This document shows, one piece after another, positions 3 through 8,963 of a DNA stretch of 42,679 nucleotides. Positions within the stretch are counted from its first letter, which is position 1. Every line of letters starts with the position of its first letter. The DNA is taken from the NCBI GenBank assembly GCA_023251975.1, contig JAHEXU010000004.1, positions 1 to 42,679 on the forward strand, in the 5' to 3' direction. The position numbers and the translations under genes were made by a program. Below the pieces are notes generated by a model, which saw nothing but the letters and a program-made list of their open reading frames with translations, made no database searches and was not told the DNA's origin. Source of the stretch: a bacterium (GTDB lineage Bacteria > Actinomycetota > Thermoleophilia > Solirubrobacterales > 70-9).

Positions 3-2039
3 GTCGGCGAGGTCCGGACCCGGTTCAACGTCGACGGGGTCCCGAGGCTGGCGCCGGTGCCGTTGGTCGACGGGACGGTTCGGTTGCTCCTCTTTGGGAC
101 CGATTCGGGGGCCGATCCCGACGAGATCGAGGACGACGGCGGCGACCCGCCGACCGGGCCAAAGTTCGTTTTGAAGGTTGCCCACTACGCGAAGCCGTCG
201 CTGTTTGGCGACAACCAGGCGGCCTTCTCGGTGATGCTCGACGAGGCGGGAGTGGTCACGCTCGAGAAGGCGCTGCTTGGCGAGATCACGCCGATTGCGG
301 TCGTTTATTCACTCGAATACCTGGCGTTGCGGCCCGCCTACACGGTGCGGGTGCGGGCCGACTGGGATCGGGTCCAGTCGCACCTCTCGCAATCGTTCGG
401 GTTCAACAGCCTGATCTTCAGCGCCCAGATCGACCACGTCGTCGACAAGTTGATCGATGATCGGGTCATCGAGATCACCGCCGACACCTTTGTCGACCCC
501 GACGAGGATCCGGGGACGATCTCCCGCCGCGACCTCGCGCTCAACGAGGTCCGCGAGATGGTGACCGACACGTTTTTTACCCCCAGCGTCGACCCGATCG
601 AGACCGACGGTGGCTTTGCCGATACCGTCGAGCGGCTCTCCCAGATCGGTGCCCGCGGCGGTCTTTCGGCGCTCTTTACCTGGAAAAGCGTTGACGTCAC
701 CCGGATTGACCAAAAGCATCTAAACGTCGAGATGAGCGAGCGAACGACGGTCCGCCGCTCGATCAATCCGCAGGGACACCTCGCGGGGATCTTCCGCTCG
801 GTGATCGAGTCCGGGCTCGATCTGAGCCGCTTCGTGATGTCGGTTGACCTTGACGACCCCTACTTCGCGAAGCGCAAGTTGCGGGTTCGCAGCGTCGCCA
901 ACTTCGCCGAGGACTCGATCGCTTTGATCAACGTTTCGCTCGACTACGGCGCCGAGCGTCGCAACCTGTTGCTCGAATCGTCGGATGCGACCGGCGAGGT
1001 CGAGTGGCCCAGCATCATCGAAACCGGGGCGATGCGCCGCGATGTCGGGGTCTCATACGACATCGCGTTTCGCGATGTCGACGGAGCGGAGCGACCGTTG
1101 TCGTTGCGGGCGGAGCTTGACCCGACGCTCGGCGACGAGTTGGTCCTAATTCCGCGCGATGACCTCTACTCGGTGGTGCAGATTCCGATCGACGCGGATC
1201 GCGTCCCGTGGGAGCGCTACCCCGAGGTCGAGGTCGAGGTGCGCTACGCCGACGAGGTCGCCGGGATTGACATTCGCGATCACTTCTTGCTCAACCGGGA
1301 ACTCGATGTTGCCGGCCGGACCCCGGTTTGGCGGCTTTTTCTGGCCGACCGCGGCAAGCGCCGATTCGAGTACAAGCTGACCTACCGGGCCGCCGACAAC
1401 CGCGATCTCGGAGGGGGCTGGATCGCCTGCGAGGACGATCGGATCAGGGTGCCCGACCCGGCGCCGCGCCGTCGCCGAATCGATGTCGTCACCAACCAGG
1501 GCCTGTGGATCGAACTCGACCGGGTCTTCGTCGATTTGCGCTACCAGCTGCCCGACGGGACGATCGGCGCCGAGGGTTCGCTGCAGTTCTCTGCGACCGA
1601 CCCGGAGCCGGTCAAGCAGTTCGTTGTCGATGAACTCGATCCGGCCGAACCGCGGATCTCATACCGGACGACCCTCGTTTACAGGGACGGTCGGGTCTTT
1701 GAAACCCCCAACTCCTACACGGTCGACCAACGGATCATGGTGAGGGCGGATCTGCGCGGCCATCAGGTTGTGAGCGTTCGCCCGATCGGTCCCGAGTTCG
1801 TCGTCAAGAACGTGGTCGAGATCGTCGTCGAGCTTCGCTACCACGACGAAACGCTCAGCTTCGCCGACAACTTCAGCTTCCGAACGACCGGGGCGCGGGC
1901 CGCCTTTGAGTTCGACTTCCTCGACCTGGCCCGCCGTGAGTACGAATACAAGGTCACCTGGAGTTACGCGAACGGGCTTTCGCGCGGAACCGAGTGGACA
2001 AAGACGAGCGCGGAGGATCTGACGATCCCGGTCGAGTAA
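3..2039 (+). CDS. Large beta-repeat protein, paralogue of the next gene (5' end outside window)
   Basis: The reading frame is open from the left edge, so the gene is 5'-truncated. A GTG at 57 could serve as a start, but the paralogue downstream has about 110 more residues before the matching segment, so the true start probably lies upstream. The N-terminal part aligns by eye with the next gene: PSLFGDNQAAF here against [11 protein letters not shown] there, then TPIAVVYSLEYLALRPA against [17 protein letters not shown]. The second half (about 1180-2036) holds three similar beta-rich units of roughly 85-95 residues, each with an ExxVxVxxRY-type strand and ending near a RxFEYKxTY-type strand (RRFEYKLTY, RREYEYKVTW). 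No signal peptide, membrane segment or catalytic motif is visible in the part present. I do not recognise the family. It is probably co-transcribed with the genes up to 6764. Confidence 0.8.
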   Translation, partial: VGEVRTRFNVDGVPRLAPVPLVDGTVRLLLFGTDSGADPDEIEDDGGDPPTGPKFVLKVAHYAKPSLFGDNQAAFSVMLDEAGVVTLEKALLGEITPIAVVYSLEYLALRPAYTVRVRADWDRVQSHLSQSFGFNSLIFSAQIDHVVDKLIDDRVIEITADTFVDPDEDPGTISRRDLALNEVREMVTDTFFTPSVDPIETDGGFADTVERLSQIGARGGLSALFTWKSVDVTRIDQKHLNVEMSERTTVRRSINPQGHLAGIFRSVIESGLDLSRFVMSVDLDDPYFAKRKLRVRSVANFAEDSIALINVSLDYGAERRNLLLESSDATGEVEWPSIIETGAMRRDVGVSYDIAFRDVDGAERPLSLRAELDPTLGDELVLIPRDDLYSVVQIPIDADRVPWERYPEVEVEVRYADEVAGIDIRDHFLLNRELDVAGRTPVWRLFLADRGKRRFEYKLTYRAADNRDLGGGWIACEDDRIRVPDPAPRRRRIDVVTNQGLWIELDRVFVDLRYQLPDGTIGAEGSLQFSATDPEPVKQFVVDELDPAEPRISYRTTLVYRDGRVFETPNSYTVDQRIMVRADLRGHQVVSVRPIGPEFVVKNVVEIVVELRYHDETLSFADNFSFRTTGARAAFEFDFLDLARREYEYKVTWSYANGLSRGTEWTKTSAEDLTIPVE

Positions 2040-2072
2040 CCGGGACCGTCGCCGTCGCAGAAAGGTTGCGTG

Positions 2073-4718
2073 ATGCTTTTACTCGGGAGTAAGACCCAGA
2101 CGATCGAGGGCGTCACGGTGTTTGCCGACAACGCCGATCCAAATCAGTTTTGGTACCTGCCAGCGCCGGTCGCGCTGGCCCACCGCGGCGAAGATCAGCG
2201 GGCCCAGTTCACCTTCATTAAATACAAGCCGGCGGCGGTCGCCGGCGGAGCAAAGGGCGGCGGCTTTTTGATGTTCGAGGTCAACCTCCGCCTCGATCCG
2301 AAGGTGCACGCGAAGATTCTCGCCCAGGTGGGCGCGACCGCAACCGGGATCAAGCGGCTCGACCCGGCTCCGTTTGATGAGGGGACCGTGCAGTGCGTCG
2401 CCCTCAACTTGCAGGGTTCAGGCGGCACCGGAGCGACCCCGGCTGGCCCCGATACCTTCAACGCCGTCGAGCAGATCCTCGGCGCCGGGGTTCCGTCGCT
2501 TTACGGCGACAACAACGCCGTCTTCGGGCTCACCCTGAGCCAGGAAGGCGCGACGATCGTCGAACAGGCCTTCCGCGAGGGAACCGCTCCGATCGGGGTT
2601 CTCTACAACCTCAAGTTCACCGGGATCAGACCGGCGCTCGATGTCAAGATCACCGCTGATATGAAGCGGGTTTTCGATCAGTTCAGCGCTGGCCTGAGCG
2701 CTCAGGTCTACTTCCTCAAGGCTGCGATCGAGGCTGGATTTGAAAAGCTCGTTCAAGACGGCGTAATCAAGATCGAGGTGACCAACTACTCGACCGCCGC
2801 CGATCGAGCGATCAAGGAGCGCTGGGCGCTCGACTTCTTCCAAAACAACATCCTCGCGCAGTGGTTTACCCCGACCCTCAACCCCGGTACCCTGCAAGGT
2901 GGCGGGGGTCGGCCCGGTGGCGGTGGCCCGGTCGGCCCCGGTGGCCCCGGCACCCCGGGAGTTCCCGGCGTCCCGGGTAATCCCGGCATTCCGGGTGGCC
3001 CCGGGACTCCCGGCATTCCGGGCTCGCCCGGCGGACCCGGCTCGCCCGGCAGCCCCGGCACCCCCGGCGGGCCCGGCACCCCGGGCGGACCCGGCACTCC
3101 CGGCTCGCCAGGCACCCCGGGCGCACCAGGCACCCCCGGCCCCGGCGGAACTCCCGGAGCTCCGGCTCCGGGTGGCATTCCCGGCGCTCCCGGAACCCCC
3201 GGCCCCGGCGGAACTCCCGGCGTTCCGACCCCGGGCGGCCTTCCCGGCGCCCCGGTTCCCGGACCCGGAGCTCCCGCACCCGTCCCCGGTTTCGTCTTTG
3301 GCGTCGAAGCGGGTGCCGCGCCGGGCCTGCCTTCGCTACCCGGTGCACCCGGTGGCGGGCAGGCCCCCGGCGCACCTGGTGGCGGACCGGCGCCGGGCCA
3401 ACCGGGCCGCAACCCTCTCCCGGGTGGCCCAGCGCCCGGCGGCACCCCAGGTGGCTCCAGCACGGGCTTCGCGGTCCAGCTCAACGTAAAGTTCATCCAC
3501 CAGGAGGAACTGAAAACGGTCAGCTTCGAGTACCACTCCTCCGAGGCGGAGCAGCGAAGCTATGCGCCGCAGGGGTTCTTCGGGTTGTTGGTCGAGGATC
3601 TGAAGCGATCCGACTACTTTCTCGAGGTCGACCTCGACGACCCGTTCTTTCGGGTCTTTAGCGTCCAGGCGAGCGCCCCGTTTGATTTCTCGCGGATTGG
3701 GCTGTCCTCGGCGACCGTCTCACTCGATTACGGCGATCCGCACCGGCCGGCGACGATCAAGCATGCCGATATCGCATTCCAATCCGAGGACCTGGCTGGC
3801 CGCCCCTGGGAGGTCTTCATGTCGGATCTCGAGACCTCCTACCGGCAGGCGACCACCTATCACTTCGATCCCGATTCGGATTGGCAGGGCGAGAGCTTCG
3901 AGTACGAACTCGACCCGCAGCAAACCGAGGAGCGCACCCTGATCTTGAACCCGCATCGCGGTCTCGGGTTCCTCGAGATCGAGGTGGCGCCAAATCGGAT
4001 GGATGGCGGCGTCATTACGTCGACCGAGGTTCATTTCGAATACGTCAGTCCGACCGGCTGGAGCCACGATCAAACCGTCCTGGTTCGGCCCGACTCGTCG
4101 CCGCAGAAGATTCGACTGCGCCTGACCGATCCGGCCGCTCGCGAATACGGCTACCGGTTCGTTCACCACCTCAAGGATGGAACGAGCAGGGAGTCGGAGC
4201 CGCGGCGACAAACCGGCAGTTCGATTCCGGTCGATGACCCGTTCGAGGCGGCGCTCGACCTCGAGTTGATCCCGCTGTATCGCGCCGGGTCTTTTCGAAC
4301 CGTCTACGTCGACATCGAATACGACGATCCCGACAATTCCTACGAACGCCGCGAGCGGATCGAAATCGACGGCAACGACCTCAACCCGGTCGATCTGCAC
4401 CTGTCGCTGGTCGATCCCGAAAAGCGCAGTTTCCGCTACCGGGTGACCTATGTGGGCAGCGACAACTCGCTGCAGCGCGGCGCCTTCGTCGAGACCGAGG
4501 AGACCCTGATCGCTTTGCAGCCCGAGCACGAGCCCTCGCCGACCGACCAGCCCTCGCCCGATCCGAGCCCCGATCCCGATCCGGCCCCGAACCCCGGACC
4601 GGCCCCAACCCCTGGACCGGCGCCGAGCCCCACCCCGAGCCCCGGTCCCTCCCCGATTCCCGATCCGACCCCGATCCCGGCACCTCCGCAAAGCGGCGAG
4701 CCGCCGCCGGTCGGCTGA
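2073..4718 (+). CDS. Large beta-repeat protein with collagen-like insert
   Basis: This 881-residue protein is a paralogue of the gene before it. ATG 2073 is chosen over the adjoining GTG 2070 because AAAGG at 2061-2065 then sits 7 bases upstream. Layout: N-terminal domain (about residues 1-270) shared with the preceding protein; collagen-like Gly-x-Pro-Gly segment (about 275-465); beta-rich repeat units (about 480-815) with strands such as REYGYRFVH and RSFRYRVTY matching those of the paralogue; then a Pro-rich tail (about 816-881) of DPxP and PxPxP type. No signal peptide or membrane helix is seen, so export is uncertain despite the collagen-like part. The gap to the preceding gene is 33 bases and to the next one 7 bases, which argues for an operon. 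A filamentous or surface structural role is only a guess. I do not recognise the family. Confidence 0.85.
2899..3460 (+). repeat. Collagen-like Gly-x-Pro-Gly coding repeat
   Basis: This is an imperfect short-period coding repeat in which GGN-NNN-CCN-GGN units encode GTPG, GVPG, GSPG, GGPG and GAPG motifs, becoming less regular and Ala/Pro-richer toward the 3' end. It lies between the N-terminal domain and the beta repeats of its host gene and has no counterpart in the paralogue upstream. Repeats of this kind gain and lose units easily, so length variation between strains is expected. Confidence 0.9.
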
Positions 4719-4725
4719 GCTGTCG

Positions 4726-5688
4726 ATGGCGCACCTGCTCGAACACGACCCGCTGCTCGACCGCCACTTCGCCGATGCCGGCGCCTCGGCAAACCGGGCG
4801 GCTGAGCGGATCCTTGCTCCGCTGCGTGATTCGGACTGGCCCGAGGTCGCCTGGTCGTTCAGCCGACTGACCGCTTGCGGCTACCCGCTTGAGCTCTCCT
4901 TTGGCGACGGCCCGACCGTCCGCTATACCGCGGAGGTCGCCGCCCCCGAGGTCGCGAACTCGCAGCGGCTCGAGCTGGCGATCGCGACGGCCGCGGAGCT
5001 TGGCGGCGCCGCGCCGCCGCTTCGAACCGCCCAGGTCCTGGCTTCGCTGCAGCGCCGCAGCCCGCTCCTTTTCGGAGCTTGGCTCGGCGCTCGCCACAGC
5101 TCGGGCGGCGACCTCTACAAGCTTTACGCCGAGACCCCGCGCCAGATCGGACCGTTCGAGATGCTCAGCCTAGGAGTCCCGGCCGCCGATCTTGATGTCG
5201 CGGTTTCGGCGCGCGGCGTCGGCGTCGAGTTGAGCGGCGATCGACCCCTTCACGAGGTCTACTACCGCTTCGACGAATCGGTCGAGCCGTGGCAGGTCGA
5301 GCGGGTTATCGGTCGATTCGGGATGGGCGGCGCGATCGCGGCGCTTGGCGATCTGGTCGAGTCGGCGACCGGGCGGGCCTTCGAGCGGGTTGCCCACGGG
5401 CGCTACCTCGGCTTCAGCATCGCCGCTGCCTCGGGAGGCGGCGCCCTCGCGTTCGCGCTCTTTTGTTACGCCCGTCGGGTCTTCGGGTCCGATGCGCAGG
5501 CTCGGCAGCGGCTCCTTCGATTGGCCGCTGCACGGGGCTGGGATTTTGAGCGCTACGCCGCCGCGACCGCCTCGATTGCCGATCGGCAGGCCTCGGGGGC
5601 CCACGGGGTCGCCGCCTTTGTCGTCGATCGGCGCGGCGAGGCGTCGCTGCAGGTCACCGTCTGCCCGCGCGAGGTCGCGCCACAATGA
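4726..5688 (+). CDS. Unknown protein with ABBA-like beta-hairpin repeats
   Basis: This 320-residue protein starts 7 bases after the preceding stop. It has no signal peptide or clear membrane helices. About five times along the chain a beta hairpin is followed by a helical stretch: PLELSFGDG/VRYTAEV, FGAWLGARH/LYKLYAE, VGVELSGDR/EVYYRFD, YLGFSIAAA/ALAFALFCYA, and VAAFVVDRRG/ASLQVTVC. The second strand of each hairpin often carries Tyr, Lys or Arg facing the same side. This periodicity is what ABBA (PT-barrel) aromatic prenyltransferases show, but no diagnostic sequence motif is recognised and the match is at the fold-pattern level only. Its stop overlaps the next start by 4 bases (ATGA), so the two are translationally coupled and probably act together. 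Alternative: a non-enzymatic beta-rich protein of unknown family. Confidence 0.8.
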   Translation: MAHLLEHDPLLDRHFADAGASANRAAERILAPLRDSDWPEVAWSFSRLTACGYPLELSFGDGPTVRYTAEVAAPEVANSQRLELAIATAAELGGAAPPLRTAQVLASLQRRSPLLFGAWLGARHSSGGDLYKLYAETPRQIGPFEMLSLGVPAADLDVAVSARGVGVELSGDRPLHEVYYRFDESVEPWQVERVIGRFGMGGAIAALGDLVESATGRAFERVAHGRYLGFSIAAASGGGALAFALFCYARRVFGSDAQARQRLLRLAAARGWDFERYAAATASIADRQASGAHGVAAFVVDRRGEASLQVTVCPREVAPQ

Positions 5689-6764
5689 CCGTTGCGGCAG
5701 CGCCACTTCAGGTTGAGGTGGCCGCCCTGGCCCGACAGCAGACACCCGACGGCGCCTTCACCGCGACGATCTTGATGCCGACCGGCCGCATGGTTTGCGA
5801 TCGTAATTGCTTTGTCACCGCGCTGGTGCTGCGGGCGCTCGATCCCGGCGGCCCGGTCCCTTGCTCGATCACCGACAGGGCCTTGGATTTTCTTCTCGAC
5901 TCGGTCGACCAGGCATCACGGGCTTGGGGATTTTGGCCGCGCGGCGACGGAGTTCGGCCAGGCTTCATTCCAGAGCCACCAATCGACTGCGACGATACCT
6001 CGATCATCGCCTTGGAGTTGGTTCGATGGGGTGCGATCGACCGGGCCGATGCGCACGCCGCCGTCGCTCGGATCGCCGCCGAAGGGCGACTGCTTGAGAC
6101 CCGTTGGCCAGCTCCGCCGTGGATCGGTCGCGGCAGTTTCGTCACCTGGATGCGCTCCGACGGCCGCCCCCAGGTGATCGACTGTGCCGTCAATGCCAAC
6201 GTCGTCGCGCTGTTGGCGTGGCTCGGACTGCGCTCGCTTCCGGGATACGCCGAAGCCTGCGCGATGATCGATCGCGCCGTCGCGTGGAGCGGTGACAGCC
6301 TCGCCCGGGCTCGTACCCTGGCACCGTTTTACCCCGGCCCGGCCGAGCTGGTCACCGCGATCGATCACGCCGTCGCCTGTGGCGCAACCGAACTGGTCCC
6401 AACCCAAAAGCGGGCCCAGTCGGCTCCCTGGTCGGCTCCGGCGCCCGAGGATCCGCTTTGCTCGAGCATGTATGGCGCCTGTCGCTGGTACTCCGAGGCG
6501 GTTCAAATCGCCCGCCGCTGGGGGCTAGCGTCGGGGTCGTCGACCGAGGGAGATCGACTCGGTCCAGGTGCCGCGATCGAAGAACGGCAGCTCGGGAGCG
6601 GCGGCGGCGCCTTGGGCGCTGATCTCGTAGAGGCGGCGGGGCTCGCGCCAGTTGACCACCGAGTCGCTGCCGAAGCGGGCGGCGAGCGCGGTCGCGGTCG
6701 CGTCAGCGGCGCGGCCGTAAAGTCGGGCGCCGGTGAGTCGGAGCGCCAGCGACTCGCCATTTGA
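5685..6764 (+). CDS. Alpha/alpha-toroid-like protein with DCDDT motif (prenyltransferase/squalene-cyclase-like)
   Basis: The start ATG overlaps the preceding stop (ATGA). Helical segments with Gln/Asp-Gly turns (QQTPDGAF, residues 18-25; ASRAWGFWPRGDG, 78-89) resemble the repeats of prenyltransferase beta subunits and squalene cyclases. PPIDCDDTSIIALEL (98-112) contains D101-x-D103-D104-T105, like the DxDDTA acid motif of class II terpene cyclases, and IDCAVNANVVALLAW is a second helix pair of similar style. At about 280 meaningful residues it would be a single toroid domain, much shorter than squalene-hopene cyclase (about 630). The last 80 codons or so lie antisense to the convergent acylase gene and are Gly/Arg-rich, so the natural C-terminus is probably near residue 280 and the tail may be read-through after loss of a stop. 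The substrate is unknown. Confidence 0.7.
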   Translation: MTVAAAPLQVEVAALARQQTPDGAFTATILMPTGRMVCDRNCFVTALVLRALDPGGPVPCSITDRALDFLLDSVDQASRAWGFWPRGDGVRPGFIPEPPIDCDDTSIIALELVRWGAIDRADAHAAVARIAAEGRLLETRWPAPPWIGRGSFVTWMRSDGRPQVIDCAVNANVVALLAWLGLRSLPGYAEACAMIDRAVAWSGDSLARARTLAPFYPGPAELVTAIDHAVACGATELVPTQKRAQSAPWSAPAPEDPLCSSMYGACRWYSEAVQIARRWGLASGSSTEGDRLGPGAAIEERQLGSGGGALGADLVEAAGLAPVDHRVAAEAGGERGRGRVSGAAVKSGAGESERQRLAI

Positions 6765-8963
6765 GATGTCGAACTGGTGCGAGGTGCCGGGCTCGCCGGC
6801 CAACAGCTCGGCGCCGGGCCCGAAGCGGGCCAGGTAGATCCGCTCCAGCTGATCTTTGAACTCCTCCCAGATCGCGACCCCGGGGTCGACGGTTCCGGCC
6901 GCGTTGGCACGGGTGTAGTTACCGTCCCAGTGGCGTAAGTGCAGCAACATCTTGGCGGCGAGGGGACCGGCGTAGCGGTTCTTGGCGCGCCGCAGGCGGG
7001 TCTGGTTGACGAATGGGAACTGCTGCGCGGTGGTTCCGTTGACCCGCTCGATCGCCCGCGAACGACGGTAGCTGGGATTCTTGGCGACCCGCCGGACCAG
7101 GGTCGCAAGCAGCCGGTAGCGATGCAGGTTGGCGTTGAGCCGCTCGCGGGCGGGAGCGTCGCCGTTGGTCCAGCCGGAGGACGGCAGGTTGTTCCAGTTC
7201 GCGAGCCAATTGCGCTCTGGGTTGACCAGGTGGGGTGTCTTCGAGCGCGGTAGCAGGCCCGCCCAGTCGGCGCGACCGTCGCCGGGCATCGGCAGGCGCT
7301 CATCCCATCGCTTTGCCCGCAGCGGGTGCAGGCCGGGATGCCAGTAGCCGATCCCACCGCGATCGTCGGCCGCGATCACGTTCTCGTTCCAGGTGACTTT
7401 GCGGAGGGCGGCATCGACCTGCTCGACCGTTCTCGCGTCGTTGAGGGCGCTGATTCCGACCACCGTCTCAAGCTCGCGGCCCCAGATCGCGTAGTCGCGG
7501 GCATAGGCGACGCCGTTGCCTCGGAATTGGACCGGCCCGTGGACGGTTCGGCAGATTCGTTCGGTGGTCGAACCGGACGGCAGGCCGGGATCGTCGGTCA
7601 GGCCGGGCAGGCTGGTCAGCGGAGTGCTGTAGTCGAAGGTCTCGTCGCGACAGTCCATTGATCGGACCTGGCCCCGGTAGGTGTAGGACTCCTCGCCCCC
7701 GACCAGCCGCGCCGCGAACAGGTCGTCCTCGTCGGACAGCCCCGAGGTGAAGCCCCAGGCGAGGTGCTTGTTGTGCCCGATCCCGACCAGCGGAACCCCG
7801 GCGGCCCCGACCCCGCGCAGGTTTTGCTGCGGGGTGTGAAGCTCAAACTCGACAAACAGCTCCGGGATCGAGAAGCCGAGCTGGGGGCCGTTGAACAGGT
7901 AGGTGCGGCCGCGGCGATCGTCGCGGATCGCCCACATGTAGGAGCCACCGTGCGGGATGATCCGGGCCAGATCGGCGCCGGGCGCTTCGCCCTCGGCGGC
8001 GCTTGCCTGGGCGAGGGTTGAGCGTCGCGGCACTACTCTCGGGCTCGTCCCGGGGCCGACCGCGTCGAGGTCGATCGTGTCGAGGAAGCGTTGTGAGCGC
8101 CGAAATCCGGCCTTCACATCTTGGCGATCGCGGCCCGGTCGGGACGGAAAAATCCCCTCGCTGCGGTGGATCGTGACCAGGCGCTTCCTGCTGCGAACCG
8201 GGAGCATTGTGTTGAAGGCCCGAGGCCCGATCTGCGCCAGCGCTTGGGCGTTTTCGAGTTCGTTGCCGTCCCCCGAAGGGACGGTGCGGGCGAGCAGGAC
8301 CCCGATCCGGGCGATGTCTCGATCGTCGATCGCGCTCGGCGCTATTCCGAGGGCGCCGAACTCGCCCGGTATCTCCGATGGGTGGGTGGTGAGGTAATCG
8401 ACGTAGGCGTTGACACCGTCGCGGTATGCCTCGAGCCGGTCCAGTAGCGGCGTCGGCAGCTTGGCGAGTTGGGCGTCGAGTTCCGTCGGGGTGTAGTAGT
8501 CGCGACGCGCGATCAGGTCGTCATCGAGGTAGGTCGACCCGAGGATCTCGGACAGCCGACCACTGCCGGCGCGGCGGAACAGCTCGAGTTGAAAGAGCCG
8601 GTCCTCGGCAACCGCGTAGCCGACCCCCCACCAGCCGTCGAGATCGCTGCCGGCATCGATCCTCGGCACCCCGTAGGCGTCGCGAGTGATCGAGACTCCG
8701 GGGCGTGGTGAGGTCGCGGAGCCGGGCTGGTTGAAGGTGAATGGCTTGTATTGGAAATTGAGGAAGAGGTCGGTCTGATCGCTCAGATGCGGCGACCCGG
8801 TGCCAGCGGCAACCCCGCCGATCGAGACGTAGCCGCTTTGCCCCGGCGGCAGGACCGCTTCGGCTTTCAGGATCGAGGCGCTTGCGAGTTCGGCGCAAAC
8901 CAACCAGCCGGTTGCCGTGGCGGTCGCGAGCAGGAGGGCAGGGCGCAGCCAACGGATCGTCAT
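6525..8963 (-). CDS. Penicillin acylase (penicillin amidase) family secreted N-terminal nucleophile hydrolase
   Basis: This 812-residue protein is probably exported through an N-terminal hydrophobic signal (about residues 8-30, ending in ASASI). Members are precursors that cleave themselves before a Ser or Thr, giving alpha and beta chains, and hydrolyse amide bonds of acylated amines such as beta-lactams or acyl-homoserine lactones. SITRDAYGVPRIDA and WWGVGYAVAEDRLFQLELFRR are typical alpha-chain sequences. The predicted nucleophile is S341 in HGGSYMWAI; most relatives have Ser-Asn there, here Ser-Tyr. GIGHNKHLAWGFTSG with following acidic residues and NWLANWNNLPSSGW are the usual beta-chain oxyanion and calcium-site regions. 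The 3' end overlaps the convergent gene by 240 bases. The real substrate cannot be told from sequence; an acyl-homoserine-lactone or lipopeptide acylase role is possible. Confidence 0.92.
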   Translation of the reverse strand: MTIRWLRPALLLATATATGWLVCAELASASILKAEAVLPPGQSGYVSIGGVAAGTGSPHLSDQTDLFLNFQYKPFTFNQPGSATSPRPGVSITRDAYGVPRIDAGSDLDGWWGVGYAVAEDRLFQLELFRRAGSGRLSEILGSTYLDDDLIARRDYYTPTELDAQLAKLPTPLLDRLEAYRDGVNAYVDYLTTHPSEIPGEFGALGIAPSAIDDRDIARIGVLLARTVPSGDGNELENAQALAQIGPRAFNTMLPVRSRKRLVTIHRSEGIFPSRPGRDRQDVKAGFRRSQRFLDTIDLDAVGPGTSPRVVPRRSTLAQASAAEGEAPGADLARIIPHGGSYMWAIRDDRRGRTYLFNGPQLGFSIPELFVEFELHTPQQNLRGVGAAGVPLVGIGHNKHLAWGFTSGLSDEDDLFAARLVGGEESYTYRGQVRSMDCRDETFDYSTPLTSLPGLTDDPGLPSGSTTERICRTVHGPVQFRGNGVAYARDYAIWGRELETVVGISALNDARTVEQVDAALRKVTWNENVIAADDRGGIGYWHPGLHPLRAKRWDERLPMPGDGRADWAGLLPRSKTPHLVNPERNWLANWNNLPSSGWTNGDAPARERLNANLHRYRLLATLVRRVAKNPSYRRSRAIERVNGTTAQQFPFVNQTRLRRAKNRYAGPLAAKMLLHLRHWDGNYTRANAAGTVDPGVAIWEEFKDQLERIYLARFGPGAELLAGEPGTSHQFDISNGESLALRLTGARLYGRAADATATALAARFGSDSVVNWREPRRLYEISAQGAAAAPELPFFDRGTWTESISLGRRPRR

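Follow-up and report, generated by a model that had tools for sequence, protein, structure and literature searches.

The window, i.e. the whole stretch of 42,679 nt that was analysed, is the entire contig C122 of a bacterial genome of 3.47 Mb (291 contigs, 99.6% complete). Four genes on the forward strand occupy its beginning. Gene 1 (3..2039) is open from the contig edge and lacks its 5′ end; gene 2 (2070/2073..4718) follows, and the two encode paralogues, B and C, of a family of giant proteins. Gene 3 (4726..5688) encodes a 320 aa protein resembling aromatic prenyltransferases of the ABBA/DMATS type. Gene 4, with a conserved part at 5685..6521 and an ORF continuing to 6764, encodes a protein of ∼279 aa resembling a single-domain class II terpene cyclase. 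These are real genes. Their ORF coordinates agree with the layout described in an earlier note on this DNA, four co-directional genes with spacings of 33 bases (taking the ATG at 2073 as the start of gene 2) and 7 bases and then a 4-base overlap. The two large proteins, which the same note had called paralogues, are indeed related: blastp aligned them at 29% over 190 aa (E-value 8e-19), with a second match between the C-terminal halves. None of the four proteins had a Pfam match or, except for a weak DMATS match of gene 3, a credible NCBIfam or PHROG assignment.

The similarity of gene 4 to its relatives stops at residue ∼279 (∼position 6521), and the last ∼80 codons of the ORF have no counterpart. 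This tail runs antisense inside a penicillin-acylase gene (6525-8963; Pfam E-value 3e-103) that is convergent with gene 4. Thus, the true end of gene 4 is probably near 6521, with either a disturbed frame near 6520 or a spurious ORF end.

Extent and distribution of the cluster

When gene 2 was searched against the genome, a further giant paralogue (A) came up at the 3′ end of another contig, C1. Upstream of paralogue A, this contig encodes a short paralogue and then two more large proteins, the larger of which has DUF346 repeats. The cluster is therefore larger than the four genes of the earlier note, whose genes stand but whose boundary, and whose end of gene 4 (the conserved part stops at ∼6521), do not: the upstream part of the cluster is at the 3′ end of C1, and only the 3′ portion falls in the window.

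The entire cluster of the window genome (C1 plus C122) has homologues, arranged alike, on a Methanosarcinales contig (L037, L038, L020). The series there begins with two relatives of the DUF346 protein without the repeats and continues with the large protein next to it, an additional short gene of the A-like kind, the short paralogue, and then A, B, C and genes 3 and 4. Identities are ∼46% for A, 47% for B (gene 1 against L020:3808-6063, 683 columns beginning at archaeal residue 83), 56% and 48% for the N- and C-terminal parts of C (gene 2 against L020:6085-8946), 35% for gene 3 (archaeal copy L020:8952-9965) and 43% for gene 4 (archaeal copy L020:9962-10831). Set against the archaeal orthologues, A is short of ∼22 residues at the end of C1 and B of ∼82 residues at the start of C122. 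Since the order is shared with the archaeon and the missing residues fall at the contig ends, the two contigs are very probably neighbours, with a gap of ∼0.3 kb.

With gene 4 as the query, 84,980 species genomes yielded six loci, found in the Methanosarcinales archaeon, in Hymenobacter, on plasmid 3 of Calothrix, in an acidobacterial MAG (two contigs; one ends within gene 4, and the other begins with a nearly complete copy) and in Flammeovirgaceae, where the relative is distant and has no partner genes. An Azospirillum plasmid is an additional locus of the cluster. In all six core loci (window genome, Methanosarcinales archaeon, Hymenobacter, Calothrix plasmid, Azospirillum plasmid and acidobacterial MAG) a giant protein is followed by gene 3 and then by gene 4, so the neighbourhood survey proposed in the earlier note found the genes together and not scattered. 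Wherever both ends are readable, the overlap between genes 3 and 4 is 4-13 bases, or else 3 bases separate them. The number of large or medium proteins ahead of gene 3 is eight in the archaeal cluster and smaller in the other loci.

For the most part, the genes are missing from genomes related to the hosts. Gene 3 among 242 genomes of the Hymenobacter order, gene 4 among 295 genomes of the archaeon's phylum and the giant N-terminal domain among 297 genomes of the window genome's phylum were each found in the queried genome only. The same order in such distant hosts, with most host relatives devoid of the genes, is not an inherited chromosome order; together with the two plasmid copies, it indicates that the cluster is a rare, mobile unit that has spread horizontally as a whole among bacteria of several phyla and one archaeon. 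Giant paralogues were also seen without gene 3, on plasmids of Pararhizobium, Paracoccus and Deinococcus; thus, the module of genes 3 and 4 is an addition and is not essential to all giant proteins. A 304-aa Pararhizobium protein at a similar position was tested as a relative of gene 3 and failed. Scans of viral contigs with alignments of the giant proteins and of gene 4 found no relative, leaving a phage origin of the cluster unsupported.

Families of genes 3 and 4

A profile of gene 3 built from six relatives (a shallow alignment from few loci) had tryptophan dimethylallyltransferase (3i4x) as its best PDB match (E-value 1.8e-5), and the next three matches were DMATS enzymes as well. Profile–profile alignment by hhalign to three bacterial DMATS proteins gave an E-value of 1.2e-5 over 261 colinear columns, and the control alignment to squalene-hopene cyclases gave 0.11. 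Out of 18,950 NCBIfam models, DMATS (TIGR03429) was the sole match, obtained for four of the six members (best E-value 7e-4). The scores are below the curated cut-offs: 14.7 bits for the window protein against the 163.85 bits of TIGR03429, and 16.7 bits (E-value 0.005) for the archaeal copy against the 25 bits of Trp_DMAT (PF11991).

Five residues of gene 3, Glu56, Arg66, Lys132, Tyr134 and Tyr179, are invariant across the six loci. The first three align with Glu89 (acceptor site), Arg100 and Lys187 (donor site) of FgaPT2, where the positions of Glu89 and Arg100 are our own count in the tagged chain 3i4x. In FgaPT2, Glu89 contacts the indole and Arg100 binds DMAPP (PMC11443524); the best-matched stretch of gene 3, lSrLTatGyPfEfaf...iRytaE, covers both. 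The position of FgaPT2 Lys259, the diphosphate-binding lysine of DMATS enzymes (PMC11443524), holds an invariant glutamate (Glu177) in gene 3, which thus lacks this second donor-site lysine. The donor site therefore differs from that of DMATS. Gene 3 shares with the DMATS family (FgaPT2, TIGR03429, PF11991) the signature S-LT--G-P-E---F---R-T-E and a K-x-Y motif, but it is shorter, has Glu at the Lys259 position, scores far below the curated cut-offs and resides in an operon of giant proteins. Structure prediction from the single sequence reached a pLDDT of 37, and the model was discarded. Altogether, the sequence comparisons support well the assignment of gene 3 as a remote relative within the DMATS/ABBA superfamily with an altered donor site, which by the curated definition is not a DMATS.

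The profile of gene 4, likewise shallow and from few loci (seven relatives), matched drimenol synthase 9mhs best in the PDB (E-value 5.9e-5 over 210 residues); squalene-hopene cyclase ranked third, weakly, with an E-value of 0.11. In hhalign, six cyanobacterial squalene-hopene cyclases aligned with an E-value of 6.6e-7 and with the acid motifs in register, while the control alignment to DMATS gave 0.46. The class II-cyclase-like acid motif pointed out earlier is DCDDTS (residues 101-106), and DxDDT is invariant in 7/7 relatives. In related enzymes the middle Asp of the DxDD motif is critical or acts as the acid (PMC9128629, PMC13244436). When 386 cyanobacterial genomes were scanned with gene 4, the true orthologue was followed by ten proteins of ∼640-660 aa, and D[VL]DDTA occurs in nine of these; the two that were tested by Pfam are both squalene-hopene cyclases. 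The window protein and its relatives had no Pfam or NCBIfam family match.

Gene 4 is thus similar to the class II terpene cyclases (HAD-fused drimenol synthase 9mhs, squalene-hopene cyclase) in the DxDDT/DxDTT motif and in the toroid-domain sequence around it; unlike them, it is a stand-alone domain of ∼280 aa, lacking a HAD or gamma domain as well as a Pfam match. A single class II cyclase domain of the beta type is unusual yet known, the case being merosterolic acid synthase (cited in PMC9128629). Membership of gene 4 in the class II terpene cyclases, as a single-domain form, is well supported at the level of family. Both of the initial readings of the small proteins were borne out, ABBA-like for gene 3 by the PDB, profile–profile and NCBIfam tests and DxDD toroid-like for gene 4 by the drimenol-synthase and squalene-hopene-cyclase tests, and none of the four genes was assigned to an unrelated known family.

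Giant proteins and neighbouring genes

The giant proteins have in common an N-terminal domain (∼270 residues in the alignment) and several Ig-like domains. In gene 2 the N-terminal domain is followed by a collagen-like, low-complexity Gly/Pro-rich linker (2910..3480 on the forward strand, approximate borders read from the translation), Ig-like domains and a Pro-rich tail; in the archaeal orthologue the linker is swapped for a different low-complexity one. The structure of the archaeal gene 1 orthologue, predicted from ten sequences, had a pLDDT of 70 and a pTM of 0.37, with the confidence mainly in the C-terminal half. Foldseek with this model returned generic tandem Ig/FN3 proteins at TM-scores <0.2. 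The C-terminal halves are accordingly modelled as tandem Ig-like repeats, a resemblance of generic fold only. Tandem Ig/FN3 or macroglobulin-type proteins (6xi3, alpha-2-macroglobulin) have comparable series of beta-sandwich domains, but the giant proteins have no sequence match to them and their N-terminal domain is unmatched: the family libraries gave no match to the giant proteins, and Foldseek gave none for the N-terminal domain of the archaeal model, which is of moderate confidence. A P47/TULIP-like identity was considered for the N-terminal extension that the acidobacterial giant protein carries, but was dropped, as Pfam did not support it.

The neighbouring genes differ from locus to locus. 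A C70-type cysteine protease lies ahead of the archaeal cluster, and 1.9 kb downstream of the cluster begin the sheath, tube and baseplate genes of a contractile injection system. A Bacillus_HBL-family protein with two companions precedes the Azospirillum cluster, and trypsin-like, EAD1-annotated and caspase-family genes accompany the giant-protein loci of Paracoccus and Deinococcus. Such neighbours hint at roles in conflict or injection, though not consistently among loci. The tube family PF06841 is absent from the window genome and from the acidobacterial MAG; in Hymenobacter it is on a contig other than that of the cluster, and in the archaeon it is beside the cluster. Membership in an injection system, a reading prompted by the archaeon, was rejected as a general rule given a window genome with no tube gene. 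PADLOC models of anti-phage defence did not match genes 1-4; their matches were limited to neighbours in Paracoccus and Deinococcus, so a defence role was not adopted. Next to the Hymenobacter and Calothrix clusters, two proteins look by eye like DNase I-type (EEP) enzymes; Pfam confirmed neither, and the PDB search of one of them gave no confirmation. In two papers on conflict systems, prenyl, terpene and squalene go unmentioned. Within the clusters we noticed no prenyl-diphosphate synthase, no precursor peptide and no further biosynthetic genes.

Proposed function and alternatives

Our preferred reading, to which we give a probability of about one half, is that genes 3 and 4 form a prenylate-then-cyclise module serving a giant multi-subunit protein assembly, with the product either bonded to a subunit or carried. 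Gene 3 would draw on the host pool for a prenyl diphosphate, probably with a C15-C20 chain, and use it to prenylate an aromatic acceptor. Cyclisation of the chain by gene 4 would follow, started by protonation of its distal end by the middle Asp of DxDDT. Because the set of giant proteins is constant and neither other biosynthetic genes nor a precursor peptide were noticed, the product is assigned most likely to the giant-protein assembly, bonded to a subunit or carried by the assembly, where the terpene may provide membrane affinity or serve as a hydrophobic cargo. We infer the catalysis, the order of steps, the chain length, the acceptor and the purpose; the reaction would resemble that of NctPC, the one clear precedent for an ABBA prenyltransferase beside a monodomain class II cyclase, and two separate genes, coupled and in fixed order, fit such a reaction. 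In NctPC, an ABBA-fold prenyltransferase fused to a cyclase puts a C20 chain onto Trp and cyclisation follows; its cyclase part resembles the monodomain enzyme MstE (review PMC13290415). The likeness, a two-step scheme of an ABBA prenyltransferase followed by a monodomain-type cyclase, was drawn from the published description of NctPC; differently from NctPC, the two activities would here be in separate genes tied to giant paralogues, with no precursor peptide noticed. Several points speak against the preferred reading: all the enzyme matches are far below curated family cut-offs, gene 3 has a different donor site with Glu at the Lys259 position, neither a prenyl-diphosphate synthase nor a precursor peptide was noticed in the clusters, and some giant proteins occur with no genes 3 and 4 beside them.

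The suggestion in the earlier note of a structural pair with two enzyme-like partners handling a prenyl or polycyclic substrate remains in essence the best reading, with the substrate presumed, except that the structural set is not a pair (eight proteins in the archaeon). Its authors knew of no described system with this composition, and the combination is indeed absent from the family libraries and the open-access papers searched. The novelty refers to the system as a whole, i.e. giant paralogues with no credible family match, joined by a prenyltransferase and a monodomain terpene cyclase and moving between bacteria and an archaeon; taken alone, each of the two enzymes is a remote form of a known kind.

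Most ABBA/DMATS enzymes act on small aromatics. This favours a possible, though rather unlikely, alternative in which the product of genes 3 and 4 is a small-molecule meroterpenoid (an indole or phenol, prenylated and cyclised) that the giant proteins bind, store or deliver while staying unmodified. Merosterolic acid synthase supplies this alternative too with a precedent for a single-domain class II cyclase (PMC9128629). Yet the loci share no gene for an aromatic precursor, an oxidase, a methyltransferase or export, and the constant partner of genes 3 and 4 is a giant protein. Alternatively, genes 3 and 4 might have lost their catalytic activity in the course of descent and now be subunits of the giant assembly with a structural or binding role: several giant subunits adjoin the two genes, both genes are remote from the active families, and gene 3 has an invariant Glu where DMATS enzymes have the diphosphate-binding Lys (PMC11443524). 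We consider this improbable, in view of the conservation across phyla of DxDDT in gene 4 and of Glu56, Arg66, Lys132, Tyr134 and Tyr179 in gene 3, which points to selection on active sites.

Marginally less improbable is that the whole cluster is a set of toxins or effectors delivered by contractile injection or by lysis, with the terpene within the payload. The contractile genes past the archaeal cluster, the Bacillus_HBL-family protein ahead of the Azospirillum cluster and the trypsin-like, EAD1-annotated and caspase-family genes flanking relatives would fit such a set, but no toxin-like neighbour is common to the loci, the window genome has no tube gene at all and the Hymenobacter tube genes are on a separate contig. 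Mere chance adjacency of the four genes is refuted by the loci found and has a negligible probability, as the identical order recurs in an archaeon and several bacterial phyla while most host relatives do not have the genes.

Returning to the module that serves the giant-protein assembly, a narrower version is doubtful, somewhat more so than the meroterpenoid alternative: genes 3 and 4 might attach a cyclised terpene to a Trp of a giant structural protein, which would be a new protein lipidation in bacteria and an archaeon. If the terpene does end up on proteins, a protein assembly would be lipidated or armed in a new manner, and the two small enzymes could be of use in protein tagging. In the N-terminal domain, a loop that varies in length contains a candidate Trp, which falls in the same or an adjacent alignment column in one giant paralogue per cluster, in 6/6 clusters with gene 3. 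Against its role as acceptor, the same Trp is also found in Paracoccus, whose plasmid has no gene 3. The short paralogues of Calothrix and Hymenobacter have a Trp near the C-terminus (KWVR).

Upstream part of the cluster on contig C1

The upstream part of the cluster lies at the 3′ end of another contig of the same genome, C1. There, positions 3185-7300 of stretch L009 encode a large protein that carries DUF346 repeats as well as recurrent Gly-Pro motifs and apparently belongs to the cluster. The archaeal relatives of this protein, from the Methanosarcinales contig, are without DUF346 repeats. Upstream, the opposite strand (L009 1984-3652) encodes two proteins: one has LGFP repeats, and the other matches Nal1_C and is trypsin-like in appearance.

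End of gene 4 and the convergent acylase

The last stretch of the ORF of gene 4 (6522-6764 in the window) has no counterpart in relatives and runs antisense within an acylase gene; probably, either the reading frame of gene 4 is disturbed near position 6520 or this ORF has a spurious end. The acylase gene (6525-8963, minus strand), convergent with the cluster, encodes a penicillin amidase family protein with a weak match to PvdQ-type acylases.

Neighbors and partial gene sets in other genomes

Three further genes 3′ of the cluster are common to Hymenobacter (L021, 11487-18299) and Calothrix (on a plasmid; L017, 12508-19056). One product is a giant protein of ∼1500 aa, and the other two look EEP-like by eye; a Pfam search with the three proteins gave no matches. 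On the Azospirillum plasmid (L018, 4082-7568), three genes are located immediately 5′ of the cluster: one encodes a member of the Bacillus_HBL family, and the other two encode helical companions.

A distant relative of gene 4, encoding a 336 aa DxDDTS protein, is present in a Flammeovirgaceae MAG (L025, 9953-10963) without the partner genes of the cluster. Giant paralogues without gene 3 are found on plasmids of Paracoccus (L016, 2414-7301), beside trypsin-like, EAD1-annotated and ATPase genes, and Deinococcus (L019, 13118-14722), beside a caspase-family gene.
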